64,000 nt of DNA from Amycolatopsis balhimycina FH 1894. Its GTDB lineage: Bacteria; Actinomycetota; Actinomycetes; Mycobacteriales; Pseudonocardiaceae. Position numbers and translations under genes: made by a program. Shown in pieces: positions 28,637 through 34,623 of the stretch. The stretch lies in the NCBI RefSeq assembly GCF_000384295.1, contig NZ_KB913037.1, positions 10,057,508-10,121,507 of the forward strand. Reading direction: 5' to 3'. The notes under the pieces were generated by a model that made no database searches, was not told the origin of the DNA, and was given only the letters and a program-made list of their open reading frames with translations. Every line of letters starts with the position of its first letter. Position 1 is the first letter of the stretch.

Positions 28637-29821
28637 TCAATCGCGTCGCGAAAGCGTCACGGCCCCCGGCCGGTGGCCGTTGCGCCTCGGCGTCACCGGC
28701 CGGTCGGCGCGGCTCTCCGCGGCGACCCCGGCCGGGCGCTGGCGGTCGATCGGCAGCACTCCCGGCGAGCTCGTCCGGTCCGCCACCCGCAGCGACTGCG
28801 CCGACGTGATCCACTCTTCGGCAGGCTCGGCGATCTCCAGCAGCAGCGCCTCGAACTCCGACCGCGTCGTCTCCAGGATGTGCGGGGCGGCGAGCCAGCG
28901 CAGCACCTGCCGCCCGGTGACCGCCATCCGCTGCCGCGGCGACGACACCAGCCGTTCGTCGAAGTACCGGATCAGCACCTTGTCGACGGTGTCCCAGGCG
29001 TTCGTCGCGCCGAACAGGTCGCGGACGTCCTCCGCGCCCAGGATCCGGAACGCCTCGGTCAGCAGCTGCATCACCTCGACGCGGAGCACGTTCAAGTGAC
29101 CGTAGGAGGTGAACTTCAGGTTGTTCCGCAGATCCAGCCCGCCGCGCCGGACCACGGCGACGCTGCCGAAGCTCGGGTCGTAGGCCCGTTCCCGGATGAC
29201 GTCGGAGATCCGCTTGTCCCGCCAGAACAGCGCGACCTGGTTGTTGAACTGCGTGAACAGCTGGTGGAAGTCGGTGTTCGGCCGGGCGTTGGCCGAACCC
29301 AGGCCACGGCCGTAGCCGAGCACGCGCCGGTACGCGTCGATCCGGTCACGCTTGGTGTAGCGCAGCACGTCGCGCCGGTCGAACCGGTACAGCCCGAACG
29401 CGCCCGGTCCGTCCGACAACCGGATCGCGCCGCGCTGGAACAGCTCCTGCAGCTTCTGGACGACGCGGAACACGCCGATCCGCTCGTGCTGGTAGAGGTA
29501 GTACAGGTCGCCGACGGCGATGACGCGTTCCGAAGCGACGGTCTCGTCGTACGCGTCGACGCCCGGTGGCATGCTCGTCTGGCCGAGGTCCGGCGCGCTC
29601 GTGTCGCCGATGCCCACCAGCGACGCGATCCCGCCGTCGGCCGGCCCCGGCTTCGTCCGCTGGTCGGTCTCGACCGCGACGAGCATGTCGTCCAGCTGCT
29701 TGAGCAGGGCGTCGCCCAGCTTCGGGTCGCTCCCCAGCTCGTTGGCCAGCTTGCCCGCGACCTGCCCGCGCAGCGCCGCGACGCGGTCGAACAGTTCCCG
29801 GTATTCCTTCTCGGTCCCCAT
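28637..29821 (-). CDS. Unknown protein, last gene of the charged-protein operon
   Basis: A 394-residue cytosolic protein without a recognised domain. Residues 5-60 are helical (EYRELFDRVAALRGQVAGKL). A central region contains LYYLYQHERIGVFRVVQKLQELFQRGAIRLSDGPGAFGLYRFDRRDVLRYTKRDR, aromatic-rich and positively charged. Then follow TDFHQLFTQFNNQVALFWRDKR and a helical segment ending with LRWLAAPHILETTRSEFEALLLEIAEPAEEWI. The last 50 residues are Arg/Pro-rich and probably disordered. It lies 24 bases after the previous gene of the five-gene operon. The conserved aromatic patches suggest a structural or partner-binding role, but the function is unknown. Confidence 0.8.
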   Translation of the reverse strand: MGTEKEYRELFDRVAALRGQVAGKLANELGSDPKLGDALLKQLDDMLVAVETDQRTKPGPADGGIASLVGIGDTSAPDLGQTSMPPGVDAYDETVASERVIAVGDLYYLYQHERIGVFRVVQKLQELFQRGAIRLSDGPGAFGLYRFDRRDVLRYTKRDRIDAYRRVLGYGRGLGSANARPNTDFHQLFTQFNNQVALFWRDKRISDVIRERAYDPSFGSVAVVRRGGLDLRNNLKFTSYGHLNVLRVEVMQLLTEAFRILGAEDVRDLFGATNAWDTVDKVLIRYFDERLVSSPRQRMAVTGRQVLRWLAAPHILETTRSEFEALLLEIAEPAEEWITSAQSLRVADRTSSPGVLPIDRQRPAGVAAESRADRPVTPRRNGHRPGAVTLSRRD

Positions 29822-29845
29822 GGTGTCCCTCCCGTGCGGGTCCGG

Positions 29846-31255
29846 TTACTGCCCGGACCGCTTGCGCGGCGCCCGGGTCTTCGGCGTCTCCGCCTCGGAT
29901 GGCTCGGATGGATCGGCCGCCTCCGCGGCGTTCCCTTCGCGAAGCTCGGCGACGGACGGCACCACCGGCCGACGTCCCGCCGGGCCGGTCGGCGGCGGCG
30001 CCGTCGGCACCGGCGGCAGCGTGACCAGCGGGCCCGGCGGGGACGTGGGCGGTGGTCCCGGGTTCCCGATCGGCCCGGCGATCCGGACGATCTCCTGCAG
30101 GTGGTCGTCGAGTTCGTCGATGGCCCGCTGCACGCGGAAGCTGAAGAAACCGGGCGGCAGCGTCGCGCGGAAGTTGTCCGGCACGTCGCGGTTGTCGCCG
30201 TTAGGGCTCTGCCGGGGCAGGCCCGCGACGATCTGCCGCAGCTGCGTCGCGACCTGCACGAACGCCGTGCCGACGCCTTCCCGGCCCGCGGATTCGATCA
30301 GCTGGCCGCCTTCGACGGAAGCGAAGTCGCGGACCCAGCGCAGCAGCCCGCCCAGCGACATCGTGCCGCCGTCCGTTGCGGGGACGGGGATCCGCAGCAC
30401 CTCGAGGTCCTCCTGCTGGATGAACACCGACTGCAGCATCGCGATCACCTCGTCGACCTGAGCCGCGGTGGCGGCCAGGAGCTGCGAGAGCGCGACCACG
30501 GCCGGGCCGAAGAACGGCTGCCCGGTCGCCGGCTGCGAGAAGGGGTCGATCCGGTCGCGCGAGTCGAGCCAGCCCCGGAACAACGACACCACCCAATCCG
30601 TCAGCGTGATGAAGGAGGTCTGGACGCGCTCCTCTTCGATCGTGTTGACCTGGCCGGAAATCAGGCCGAACTCGTCGCGCAGCCGGCCGAGGTGACCGCC
30701 GACGCGGTCGGCGTCCGTGTCGCCGGACCCGCCCCCGCCCGACGTCGTGGCGGGCCCCAGCAGCAGCGAGAAGAGCTGGTCGACCCGGGGCACGCGGATG
30801 AGCGGGCTCTCCAGTTCCTGGCGGATCTGTTCCAGGTCGTGCCGCACCAGAGCGCGGAAACCCTCGGCGTTCTCCGGATCAGCGTTCGTCCTCAGTGGAC
30901 GGAGCGAGTCGAGCAGCGCCAGCGCGTCCTTCGCCGCGCTGCGGGCCCGGGCGGCCAGGGACGCCTGGCCGCCGGTGACCGCGCCCAGGTCCGCCTGGAT
31001 GGCGTAACCCCGCGGAGTCCACGTCGCCTCCGTGCGTCCCTGCGCCCCGGACAGCTTGAAGCTGCCGGTCAACGCGGCGACGAAACCCTTCGTGTCGCCT
31101 TCCCGCCACCGCCAGCCCAGAACGTCGCTGATCGCCTGCTCGGCCAGCTTGCCCGTCGTCGGCGCCGAGGAGTACTGCCGCGCCGGCGACGGGTACGCCG
31201 TGTCGAATTCCTGAGCGGGCGGCAGCTGCGCGCCGCGGTCGTCGTTGATCGTCAT
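29846..31255 (-). CDS. Unknown large helical protein of the charged-protein operon
   Basis: A 469-residue protein whose ATG at 31255 overlaps the stop of the previous gene (ATGA). After a disordered start (AQEFDTAYPSPARQYSSAP) come long amphipathic helices, for example AGRSAAKDALALLDSLRPL-like stretches and LLAATAAQVDEVIAMLQSVFIQQEDLEVLRI. The C-terminal 60 residues are Pro- and Thr-rich, then basic (RAPRKRSGQ). No signal peptide or convincing membrane segment is present. The overall look is of a structural, tether or pore-forming-like helical protein. No family is recognised; translational coupling shows it belongs to the operon. Confidence 0.8.
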   Translation of the reverse strand: MTINDDRGAQLPPAQEFDTAYPSPARQYSSAPTTGKLAEQAISDVLGWRWREGDTKGFVAALTGSFKLSGAQGRTEATWTPRGYAIQADLGAVTGGQASLAARARSAAKDALALLDSLRPLRTNADPENAEGFRALVRHDLEQIRQELESPLIRVPRVDQLFSLLLGPATTSGGGGSGDTDADRVGGHLGRLRDEFGLISGQVNTIEEERVQTSFITLTDWVVSLFRGWLDSRDRIDPFSQPATGQPFFGPAVVALSQLLAATAAQVDEVIAMLQSVFIQQEDLEVLRIPVPATDGGTMSLGGLLRWVRDFASVEGGQLIESAGREGVGTAFVQVATQLRQIVAGLPRQSPNGDNRDVPDNFRATLPPGFFSFRVQRAIDELDDHLQEIVRIAGPIGNPGPPPTSPPGPLVTLPPVPTAPPPTGPAGRRPVVPSVAELREGNAAEAADPSEPSEAETPKTRAPRKRSGQ

Positions 31256-31707
31256 CGGTGTGCCCCACATCCGTCGAGTTCGGCCAGTTCCACTGCTTCC
31301 CGCCAGCACCGCAGCATCGCGTCCTCCGCGTCCCGCAACGCGTCCGCGCAGCGGTCGGCTCCGCGCCGGACGCCCTTCACCCACCCGCGCCACTCCGTCT
31401 CCCGCCCCTGGACCCCGCGCAGGAGCGCGGAAACCTCGGTGTGGGACCGGTATTCGTCGTCGATCCGGCGCCGGACCCACAGCAGCGCCGCCGCCGTCGT
31501 GTGCAGCCCATCGGCGGTGGCCGGCGCGAGCGTCGCCGCCTGGAGCTCGGCGGCGCCGTCGGTGACGACCTCGGCGAGGTGGTCGGCGACCGCGAGCCCT
31601 TCACCGCCCGGCCGGTCCTCGCACACGGCCAGCTCCAGCGCGTGCCACGCGTCGGCCAGGAGGCGGACCTTGCCGGCCAGCACGGTGAATTCGGCCCGGA
31701 ACGTCAT
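31252..31707 (-). CDS. Unknown small helical protein of the charged-protein operon
   Basis: A 151-residue, almost entirely helical protein: FRAEFTVLAGKVRLLADAWHALELAVCEDRP, AVADHLAEVVTDGAAELQAA, HTTAAALLWVRRRIDDEYRSH, DAEDAMLRCWREAVELAELDG. It ends in a Cys-Gly-His segment (DGCGAHR). It starts with an ATG overlapping the stop of the HExxH gene and ends overlapping the start of the 469-residue gene, so it is coupled on both sides. The helix lengths resemble a four-helix bundle, perhaps an adaptor or chaperone. No family is recognised. Confidence 0.8.
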   Translation of the reverse strand: MTFRAEFTVLAGKVRLLADAWHALELAVCEDRPGGEGLAVADHLAEVVTDGAAELQAATLAPATADGLHTTAAALLWVRRRIDDEYRSHTEVSALLRGVQGRETEWRGWVKGVRRGADRCADALRDAEDAMLRCWREAVELAELDGCGAHR

Positions 31708-32981
31708 CGCGACTTCCTCCCCAGCTCCTCCATGAAGAACCCGACCAGCCGCTGGGGTGGTGCCATCCGCTCGTCGAGTGCGAACCGGACCGCGCCGATG
31801 AGGAACCGTTCCGGCACCACCCCGGGGGAGACGCCGTCGGCGAGCCGCTCGGCGGCCTCCTCGATCATCGCCTGCTCCTTGGGCTCGAACCGCAGCACCC
31901 GGGCCAGCGGCCGGTGCCCGAGGGAGGGGAACGACGTGAAGCACATCGCGTCCACCACCGCGGGGATCGCCGTGGCGGCCGTGGCCTGCAGTGCGCCCGG
32001 GGCGCCGGAGAGCCGGGCACCAGGATAGAGCCGCCGCCACAGCTCGGCGTAGGAGTCCGCGTGCCGGCGGAACCCGATGCGCCGCAACAGCTCCACCGAC
32101 AGTTTCGCGCGCAGGTACGGCACGGGGTGCACCGCGCGCGGTGAGAAGCCGAGAGTCTCCGGCCCGGTCCGGCCGATGACGTCGAAGAGCGAGCCGACCA
32201 CCGCCGGGCCGCCCAGCAGCACGGCGGCCAGGTCCGCGAACGTCTCGCGGTTCCAGCGGACCCAGATCGCCACGATCGGCCGAGGCACGCCCGCTTCGGT
32301 GAGCCGGGCCGCCACCTGCAGGGGAATCGCGCGCGCCAGGCCGAGATCGTTCTGCAGGTTGTGGCTGACCTCGTGCAGGATCGCGCCGAGCGTCCACGGG
32401 TTGACCAGCCGGTGGTACGGCAGCTGGATGAGCGGGAACGGGTTCAACCGGTTTCCCAGGCGCCGCAGCGGAATCCCGCGCCGCGAGGTCGCCGGGCCGC
32501 CGCCGTGGCGCAGGTAGCAGAACGGCGGCGGCGTCGGGATCGGCCGCCAGCGCCCGAGGCCGAGATAGGCGTACTGGTAGCAGTCCAGGGCGATCCGGTC
32601 CCCGGCCACCAGCCACGGCGCGAACGCGGTCTGCCGCTGGTTGAACAGGTCGAGGTAGAAGTCCCAGACCTGTTCGGTCGCCCGCACCCAGCGGTGCGCC
32701 CGCGCCTTCGCGCGCAGCAGCGGTTCCGGATCGGCCGGCTCCGCGGCCGCCCGGCGCACCCCCTGTACCGCGGTGTGCAGCGGCTCGCGCAGCGTCGCCA
32801 TCATCCGGTTGACCGCGGCCAGGTGCGCCCGGCTCGGTCCGGTCGCCGGGTCGCCGAACTCCTCCCAGCGGAACGGCCGCAGCGCGTCGAGGTGCCGCCG
32901 CGCGTTGACGGCCTGGGTCCGCGCCCAGCCCGAAAGGTCTTCCCCGGTCGCCGGTCGTGCCCGCCGGGATCCGGTGGGCAC
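31704..32981 (-). CDS. HExxH-containing probable zinc metallopeptidase
   Basis: About 425 residues from the GTG at 32981. The key feature is GAILHEVSHNLQNDLG near residue 215, a zinc-binding HEVSH motif, with possible further ligands in a helix downstream (WNRETFADLAAVLLGG, with Glu placed like a third zinc ligand of gluzincins). The rest is helical with Arg/Pro-rich linkers. The start is uncertain: the frame is open further upstream through two dispersed repeats, and no ribosome site is seen. It is coupled to the next gene by ATGA. It could process the acidic/basic neighbour or be a toxin-like peptidase. Confidence 0.72.
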   Translation of the reverse strand: MPTGSRRARPATGEDLSGWARTQAVNARRHLDALRPFRWEEFGDPATGPSRAHLAAVNRMMATLREPLHTAVQGVRRAAAEPADPEPLLRAKARAHRWVRATEQVWDFYLDLFNQRQTAFAPWLVAGDRIALDCYQYAYLGLGRWRPIPTPPPFCYLRHGGGPATSRRGIPLRRLGNRLNPFPLIQLPYHRLVNPWTLGAILHEVSHNLQNDLGLARAIPLQVAARLTEAGVPRPIVAIWVRWNRETFADLAAVLLGGPAVVGSLFDVIGRTGPETLGFSPRAVHPVPYLRAKLSVELLRRIGFRRHADSYAELWRRLYPGARLSGAPGALQATAATAIPAVVDAMCFTSFPSLGHRPLARVLRFEPKEQAMIEEAAERLADGVSPGVVPERFLIGAVRFALDERMAPPQRLVGFFMEELGRKSR

Positions 32982-33112
32982 GGCTGTGACAGCTGGGTCT
33001 TCGCCCCAGGCCGGGGGCTCTGCCACCCGGAACCCCCGAAGAGCGGCTGTGACAGCTTGGGCTTCGTCCCGGGCCGGGGGCTCCGCCGTCCGGAGCCCCC
33101 GAGAAGCGGAAC
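32982..33112. repeat. Two tandem copies of the GC-rich dispersed element inside the operon
   Basis: Two copies (about 32982-33040 and 33042-33112) each contain CTGTGACAGC, a G/C-rich middle and GGGGGCTC(T/C)GCC followed by CGGAACCCCC or CGGAGCCCCC. They match the element at 15741-15797. They lie between the charged-protein gene and the HExxH gene, interrupting an operon otherwise joined by overlapping codons. Confidence 0.8.
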
Positions 33113-33138
33113 GGACAGCGGTCCGGGCGGCCCGCAGC

Positions 33139-33927
33139 TCAGCGGCGGCGCGCACGGCCGCGCGCCTTGCGGCGTCCCGCACCGGTGCGCGCCCGTGCCG
33201 AGCGGGCGTGCCGGGCGGCGTGCTGGTGCCGGTGGTGCTGCTGGTGACGGTGGTGGTGCCGGTGGTGCCGGTGGCGCTGCGGGCCGTTCGCGGCGTGCAC
33301 GGTGTGGCCGACCAGCCGCCGGGTGACGTAGTGCGCATCGATCGGGCGGCCATCGGCGTAGCGGCGGCCGATGTCGCGCGCGGTCCGGCCGAGGATCCGC
33401 GGCACGTGGCGGACGGCGTGCCGGGTGGCGGGGTTGCGCCACAGCCGCCGGCCCAGGTTGATCGCGCCGCGGATGAGCTGCGGCCCGTGCTTGACGATCT
33501 TCGGCAGGGCCCATTTCGCGGCCTGGAACGCGAGCGGCGCGAGTGCGCCGAGAAACGCCTCGGCCTCCTGCTCGGTCTCCGCGTTTTCGGCCTGGAACGC
33601 CAGCTGGGCCATCATTTCCGCGTCCGAGTACACGCGCCGGGCCGGATTGCTGAAACCCTCGCCCTCGAACTCGAATTCCGCTTCCAGCTCACGGACGACC
33701 GCTTCGAACTCGGCCTCCGCCTCGTCCTCGTAGTCGTCCTCGTCTTCGTCCTCGTCTTCGAGCTCGTATTCCAGCTCCCCGGCGAGCCCGCCGAACTCGT
33801 CTTCGTCCTCGTCCTCGTCCTCCAGCTCACCGAGGCCGACCTCCAGCTCGCCTTCGAGCTCGGCCTCCAGCTCCCGGTCCAGCTCGTCTTCCAGCTCGCC
33901 TTCCACGGCCGGGTAACGACGGCTCAT
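33139..33927 (-). CDS. Charge-segregated protein: acidic N-half, helical core, His/Arg C-tail
   Basis: A 262-residue protein with GGAGAGGGG 6 bases before the ATG. Residues 5-95 are about half Glu/Asp with Leu or Phe every few residues (LEDELDRELEAELEGELE, FEAVVRELEAEFEFEGEGF). Residues 100-205 form a helical core (YSDAEMMAQLAFQAENAETEQEAEAFLGALAPLAFQAAKWALPKIVKHG). The tail is basic and His-rich (HRHHRHHHRHQQHHRHQH). I recall similar E-rich proteins with a basic end from actinomycetes, cyanobacteria and myxobacteria, without known function. The His cluster could bind metal. It is the first gene of the five-gene operon. Confidence 0.85.
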   Translation of the reverse strand: MSRRYPAVEGELEDELDRELEAELEGELEVGLGELEDEDEDEDEFGGLAGELEYELEDEDEDEDDYEDEAEAEFEAVVRELEAEFEFEGEGFSNPARRVYSDAEMMAQLAFQAENAETEQEAEAFLGALAPLAFQAAKWALPKIVKHGPQLIRGAINLGRRLWRNPATRHAVRHVPRILGRTARDIGRRYADGRPIDAHYVTRRLVGHTVHAANGPQRHRHHRHHHRHQQHHRHQHAARHARSARARTGAGRRKARGRARRR

Positions 33928-34030
33928 TACGTTCCCCTCTCCTTTGCTGAGACACCCGCGATGCCCGGCGCCGTGCGTCCGTGAGCACCCGGCTCAGTCC
34001 ACGCCGCGCGGGGCCGGGCGGGTAGTGGCA

Positions 34031-34061
34031 CGTCCGCGGCGGACGCAACCGGACTAGACCA
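34031..34061. promoter_or_regulatory. Palindrome and DasR-like site in the divergent promoter
   Basis: CGTCCGC-G-GCGGACG (34031-34045) is a perfect 7-bp inverted repeat. Next to it, TGGTCTAGTCCG (minus strand, 34061-34050) matches 10 of 12 bases of the DasR box TGGTCTAGACCA. They lie between the five-gene operon and the LuxR-type gene. Binding is not shown. Confidence 0.35.
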
Positions 34062-34146
34062 CCGATGTCACACAAACCGACGATGCGCGGCCGACGTTTT
34101 GGGGGTTTCCTGGACAAGGAGGAGAAGCGGGAAAATCGGGGGAGAA

Positions 34147-34623
34147 ATGTCGATGACGACGAGTTTGTCGGCTCCAGCGGCACCCATGTTCGGTCCGAGG
34201 CGTCATCGGACGGGCGCGCGGGCCGCGGTGGTGAGCGATGACGAAACGGTCCGAAGCCTGGCCAGGGCGCTGGTCCGCCGGGTGGCCGAGCTGGCCGACC
34301 CGGACGCGGCCGGGCGGCGCCCGCTGCTGGACCTGACGGAGCTGGGGGTCCGTTGCCTGCTCGTGCCGGTGGTGCCGTCGGCGCACGACCTGCTGAGCCC
34401 GCGCGAGCACGAGATCGCCCGCATGGTCGGTCAGGGGTACACCAACCGGGCGATCGCCCGCGTGCTCGACATCAGCCTGTACACGGTGTCGGCGCACATG
34501 CGGCGGATCTTCACGAAGCTCGGGGTGGGCACGCGAGCCGCGATGGTGGCGGCGCTGTCGGGCCAGGACTCGCTCGCGGAGGCGGCCGCCGGGGGACTTC
34601 CGGTACTCGGCGACACCGACTAG
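34147..34623 (+). CDS. LuxR-type helix-turn-helix regulator
   Basis: A 158-residue protein. Residues 80-140 are a LuxR/NarL DNA-binding domain (LLSPREHEIARMVGQGYTNRAIARVLDISLYTVSAHMRRIFTKLGVGTRAAMVAAL). The N-terminal 75 residues lack a receiver or autoinducer domain and look like a short helical region. The ATG at 34147 has GGGGGAGA upstream; a second ATG lies two codons on. It faces away from the charged-protein operon and shares its promoter region, so it is a likely regulator of that operon. Confidence 0.87.
   Translation: MSMTTSLSAPAAPMFGPRRHRTGARAAVVSDDETVRSLARALVRRVAELADPDAAGRRPLLDLTELGVRCLLVPVVPSAHDLLSPREHEIARMVGQGYTNRAIARVLDISLYTVSAHMRRIFTKLGVGTRAAMVAALSGQDSLAEAAAGGLPVLGDTD

Follow-up and report, generated by a model that had tools for sequence, protein, structure and literature searches.

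Polymorphic toxins are built from constant N-terminal domains joined to swapped, unrelated C-termini (Zhang et al., 2012, PMC3482391). According to that paper, many systems of the Photorhabdus virulence cassette (PVC) type are without immunity genes, Het-C and OmpA domains occur among PVC toxins, and the motif HExxHxxQ...E is the signature of the PVC metallopeptidase. We analyzed a 64,000-nucleotide stretch of the Amycolatopsis balhimycina FH 1894 genome (contig NZ_KB913037.1, positions 10,057,508 to 10,121,507; hereafter the window), in which five genes that we call G1 to G5 form an operon-like row on the minus strand, from 28637 to 33927. With a LuxR-type regulator gene they make up a gene set, the cassette, that may belong to an effector system. 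The genome is one contig of 10.86 Mb, and its G5 groups with those of Amycolatopsis in the G5 tree. The five genes are:

33139..33927, minus strand: G1, 262 residues, with an acidic N-terminal half, a helical core and a basic C-terminus (here rich in His and Arg); proposed to be a carrier or a cargo that bears an N-terminal tag (see below).
31704..33155, minus strand: G2, a zincin-like protein with HEVSHNLQ...ETFAD; 483 residues when counted from the GTG at 33155, an unsure start.
31252..31707, minus strand: G3, 151 residues, helical by eye, the least conserved of the five.
29846..31255, minus strand: G4, 469 residues, of an unnamed family in which many relatives are longer.
28637..29821, minus strand: G5, 394 residues, all-helical, the best conserved member and the anchor of our searches.

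The layout is as the original prediction had it, with ATGA overlaps at both the G2/G3 and the G3/G4 junctions, a spacing of 24 bases between G4 and G5, and HEVSH in the second protein. The sequence alone leaves the start of G2 open, because its frame continues far into G1 (31704-33353); the GTG at 33155 gives a 17-base overlap with the end of G1, and good conservation starts near residue 74 in that numbering. Searches of Pfam, NCBIfam, PHROGs and PADLOC gave no credible match for any of the five proteins (best E values 0.058 for G3 and 0.52 for G4), and for these libraries the earlier statement that they match no known family holds. The linkage of G1-G5 was not found in the open full-text literature (PMC) that was searched, a scope outside which bioRxiv and most subscription papers fall. 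Within these libraries and this literature the core families and their linkage are new; the enzymes encoded in the variable slot described below are of known kinds. A phage origin was considered and rejected: G5 is unmatched in 50,697 phage records, no relative was confirmed in viral_contigs, and G1-G5 have no PHROG match under E 0.5.

Scanning a collection of species genomes with G5 yielded 44 loci, 43 of which enter the order counts. The excluded locus (L054:10001-10099, Amycolatopsis regifaucium) retains the first 33 residues of G5 alone, 97% identical, the scar of a cassette loss. G1, G2, G4 and G5 lie on one strand and in that order at 39/43 loci. Among the exceptions, L023 and L034 are truncated at the edge of a contig, L037 has an extra G1 after G5 in addition to its upstream copies, and at L048 a G4 too diverged for tblastn was placed there by clustering. 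Distances between loci, computed for G5, G2, G4 and LuxR, are correlated with one another (r 0.77-0.89, 32-43 loci), and 0/999 permutations were as high in each of the six comparisons; the set is thus inherited together, with shared taxonomy contributing to the correlation.

The G5 tree spans seven phyla (Actinomycetota, Cyanobacteriota, Chloroflexota, Verrucomicrobiota, Pseudomonadota, Acidobacteriota, and Armatimonadota), and identity between phyla is about 50-60% for both G2 and G5. Conservation of order, this phylum range and the correlated distances bear out the conserved module that had been foreseen from the window; of the groups in which it was to be sought, actinomycetes and cyanobacteria have it, and no myxobacterium is among the 44 loci. 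A G5 match occurs in 10/200 genomes of the order, two of them doubtful (G055, a remnant, and G063, E 8e-4), and among 296 genomes of the phylum a G2 profile matched one, that of the window. Six of 292 cyanobacterial genomes have a G5-like gene, two of these remote (36% and 29% identity). The module is rare and patchily distributed and, in A. regifaucium, reduced to the G5 remnant; it has therefore undergone gain and loss and, at least in part, transfer between lineages. On a 2.38-Mb Paraburkholderia plasmid lie two G1 genes, G2, G3, G4, and G5, together with M20, amidohydrolase and LuxR genes recognized by eye. Two Verrucomicrobiota bins enclose a Nitrosomonas bin in the G5 tree, a fully supported placement in which binning errors are possible.

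The LuxR-type gene belongs to the gene set. A homologue is present at 32/43 loci, upstream on the opposite strand at 24 and on the same strand at 8 (downstream in 7 of these 8). The original prediction noticed this gene and had it facing the operon; the gene is there, and it points away from G1-G5. It and the conserved blocks next to it are:

34099..34623, plus strand: LuxR-type (GerE) regulator, GerE E value 1.6e-15, with an alternative ATG start possible at 34147.
34066..34087, plus strand: 22-base conserved block between LuxR and G1, a possible regulatory site.
34021..34033, plus strand: second short conserved block, closer to G1, found by alignment; 1 match in the window vs 0.02 expected.

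A degenerate pattern of the 22-base block recurs in 7/9 fetched Amycolatopsis and Saccharopolyspora cassette loci. The block is consistent with regulation by the LuxR protein; no LuxR-box dyad shared by the intergenic regions was found in their alignment.

Charge segregation is conserved in G1. Its net charge is -47 across residues 1-123 and +31 beyond, and a charge minimum that deep was reached in 0/10,000 shuffles of its charges. In all 46 aligned rows (from 68 clustered ORFs, i.e., open reading frames) an acidic segment precedes a basic one, with median charges of -33.5 and +27.5. The layout described from the window copy is thus kept throughout, apart from its His-rich tail, which is largely peculiar to that copy: 18 His follow the charge minimum there, as against 0 to 15 across 45 aligned relatives, 35 of which have fewer than 6. 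At 28/43 loci the family is present in at least two tandem copies, and at two-copy loci a longer G1 with glycine-rich stretches usually precedes a shorter one. A G1 profile run on 16 other cassette genomes or records gave matches confined to cassette coordinates, bar one weak match on the Paraburkholderia plasmid (E 5e-6).

G2 keeps what we predict to be a complete zincin-type metal site. Residues H261, E262, H265, E304, and D308 are invariant in 38/38 aligned rows, an alignment that omits L012, L022, L044, L050, L051, and L023 (the last a contig piece without G2). HExxH followed 30-48 residues on by ExxxD, which we take to be the gluzincin-type motif, is present in 42/42 copies (the aligned rows plus L057, L090, L091, and L092), and HExxHxxQ in 41/42; the L092 protein is 34% identical to a cyanobacterial G2. 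The likeness to gluzincin-type zinc peptidases lies in this invariant pair of motifs. G2 differs from them in having no Pfam or NCBIfam peptidase match. A structure model has a predicted local distance difference test score (pLDDT) of 81.6, is confident in the conserved part and gave weak fold matches only; hydrophobic stretches with mean hydropathy of at least 1.9 over 19 residues occur in 6/38 rows.

The G5 model is all-helical at moderate confidence (pLDDT 71.1), and a protein search returned 3034 G5 homologues among 7998 candidates scored. The G5 alignment omits L011, L022, L044, L047, and L051 and includes 10 of 120 listed database proteins; that of G4 covers 35 loci. Remote G5 homologues also occur in two larger clusters, L058 (25% over 240 residues) and L093, from a cyanobacterial genome (28% over 276 residues), which differ from the cassette in their gene set and have no convincing G1, G2, or G4 (best E values 5e-5 for G1 and 1e-4 for G2). 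At L058:5326-21483 (Burkholderia pyrrocinia pBPJTT) the homologue has a wall amidase/papain-like protein and an S8 peptidase as neighbors. The two clusters have related proteins by eye and perhaps represent a second system on the G5 fold.

Downstream of G5, the relatives have a variable slot. Its commonest identified genes encode M20 peptidases (16/43 loci) and amidohydrolases (5/43, three of them alongside M20), and trypsin-like proteins occur at 2/43, with Pfam run on one member per family; an extra G1-like gene occupies the slot at L037 and L041. Slot genes of toxin or lytic kinds are present at 10/43 loci, mostly in cyanobacteria. The slot proteins at these ten loci are:

L036: PG_binding plus OmpA (Pfam).
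L040: DUF2272/CHAP (Pfam).
L042: M15 with PG_binding (Pfam).
L039: type 23, NS endonuclease, barely above the cut-off (Pfam).
L030, L032, L043: type 23, no Pfam match; L030 is GIY-YIG-like by eye.
L053: type 71, GIY-YIG (Pfam), a relative of L038.
L038: type 71, a relative of L053.
L052: C-terminal Het-C/phospholipase C-like domain, a label based on a motif.

Two of these types combine a shared N-terminus with differing remainders. Type 71 proteins (L038, L053, L090) have N-domains 72-77% identical over 124-147 residues and diverge beyond them; type 23 proteins (L030/L032, L039, L043) are 27-49% identical over 101-137 N-terminal residues and likewise divergent beyond. The type 71 N-domain, about 130 residues long, appears to define a family of polymorphic toxins that has no name so far. 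It is present in 27 proteins of a large database (P0241-P0267), joined to up to 13 C-terminal classes without detectable similarity, an upper figure since several are single short or partial rows. Among them are GIY-YIG, PF09533 (DUF2380) and Amidase_2 with PG_binding. Going by the motif H-x3-D-x5-H, and following PMC3482391, we label the C-terminal domain common to L052 and L090 (34% over 248 residues, E 9e-25) as Het-C or phospholipase C-like; its Pfam rows are weak (Zn_dep_PLPC E 0.16, VWA7_N E 0.0075). The slot proteins of relatives thus resemble polymorphic toxins in their constant N-domains and swapped C-termini, including GIY-YIG, NS endonuclease and wall amidase. They differ in that their N-domains, like the core G1-G5, have no Pfam family, and the window has no such protein.

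We read G1-G5 and the LuxR-type gene as a mobile module that may arm the cell with tagged effectors or release them, and consider this a serious possibility, if slightly less than probable. The tag would mark cargo, and G1 would be a carrier or a membrane-active cargo kept neutral by its own acidic half. Tagged cargo may be bound or assembled by G3, G4, and G5, G2 would remove the tag or free the cargo, and the LuxR protein would turn the set on. Because the window copy has no recognized slot gene, the cargo in this genome would have to be G1. We suggest more tentatively, as a reading that is possible and distinctly doubtful, that G1-G5 may be the core of an undescribed effector-delivery or release system spanning seven phyla, in which the tag would recruit G1 along with an exchangeable set of wall hydrolases, nucleases, and Het-C-like enzymes, all to be assembled or freed by G2 and G3-G5, with no recognized secretion gene in the operon. 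The effector system raised as a possibility by the original prediction gains indirect support from the polymorphic toxin-like genes in the relatives' slot and none from within the window itself. Of the peptidase processing that it also proposed, what is observed is the invariance of the predicted metal-site residues in G2.

The tag in question, acidic and aromatic and apparently common to G1 and some slot proteins, is a lead. Counted over the first 80 residues, acidic-hydrophobic-acidic motifs average 1.9 in 15 slot proteins vs 0.31 in 29 flanking conserved ORFs (p 2.6e-4), for a motif picked after looking and with 2/15 slot proteins G1-like; at least two motifs are present in 7/15 slot proteins vs 2/29 control ORFs. 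At locus L091 two slot genes have 14 N-terminal residues in common and nothing else that aligns, and a third gene 5 kb downstream matches 23 N-terminal residues of one of the two (E values 0.009 and 0.004). The N-terminus of these slot genes is of the LFEAP type, and two of the three G1 copies at the locus begin with LFEAP as well. Within the window, G1 alone scores high for tag motifs combined with alternating acidic residues. As a genome-wide marker of the tag in 20 genomes, the pattern WLFE[AT]P was rejected: it gave 3 matches near the cassette in G703 and 1 each, chance-like, in G508 and G510, and a reversed control of the pattern gave one match in each of five genomes.

Several observations weigh against tagged effectors. 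Besides the choice of motif after the fact, 4/15 slot proteins lack any tag motif, and the overall acidity of slot N-termini is not raised (p 0.57). No recognized slot gene is present in the window or in nine other Amycolatopsis and Saccharopolyspora copies, the commonest slot gene, the M20 peptidase, is no obvious toxin, and a G3 homologue is detectable at only 28/43 loci. In the library searches the window's core proteins matched no ATPase, channel or secretion family; lysis or general export is therefore as possible as a dedicated machine.

The same features can be read in other ways. G1 might belong to an antimicrobial-peptide or pore system, in which its acidic propiece neutralizes the cationic helical half, G2 removes the propiece, the basic part attacks membranes and the slot enzymes act as helpers. 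The acidic-then-basic layout of all aligned G1 rows, the glycine-rich hydrophobic stretch of many longer copies and the invariant metal site of G2 would all suit such a system; we nevertheless think it unlikely, as a 19-residue window with mean hydropathy of at least 1.6 is found in only 2/46 G1 rows and the conservation of G3-G5 is left unexplained. A decidedly unlikely alternative is an internal assembly, in which G1, through its oppositely charged halves, forms a cytosolic condensate for storing or scaffolding enzymes, with G3-G5 as structural parts and M20 and amidohydrolase proteins as the usual clients. The predominance of these two among the identified slot genes agrees with it, as does the lack of any hydrophobic 19-residue window of at least 1.6 in G5 (0/49 rows), but a benign body does not easily accommodate slot enzymes such as wall hydrolases and nucleases whose C-termini are swapped.

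Finally, the module might be an accessory of an extracellular contractile injection system (eCIS) of the PVC kind, making cargo ready for a contractile particle whose genes lie elsewhere in the genome, which we regard as highly improbable. In nearly all copies G2 carries the HExxHxxQ...E motif that PMC3482391 gives for the PVC metallopeptidase, and kinds of slot domain, Het-C and OmpA among them, overlap with the PVC toxin payloads listed there. Moreover, eCIS_core (PF13699) is present in 17/25 cassette genomes and the contractile tube family (PF06841) in 20/31 vs 80/200 genomes of the order, a count in which G097 and G495 are apparently one genome counted twice. However, 11/31 cassette genomes have no member of the tube family, which is in any case common across the order, and G2 has no detectable sequence relation to eCIS_core past an 8-residue motif: there is no Pfam match at E 1, and hhalign aligned 8 columns only, at a probability of 3.4%, with a profile built from the 26 of 28 extracted stretches that, by the printed rows, read through with HExxH. 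A required eCIS link, or an eCIS operon, was rejected on these grounds. The tube and eCIS_core genes of the window genome (C1:10326232-10354518) lie about 235 kb beyond the cassette, a distance that also speaks against an accessory role.

If the module does arm cells with tagged effectors, actinomycetes, cyanobacteria, and Burkholderiaceae would have in common an effector system made from families unnamed in the libraries searched. Its visible cargo slot would indicate which genes to test first and could yield new toxin and lytic domains; search handles would be provided by the G2 motif and by G5, which has homologues in the thousands. Even if the effector reading fails, these co-inherited, unannotated families are a well-defined target for finding function.

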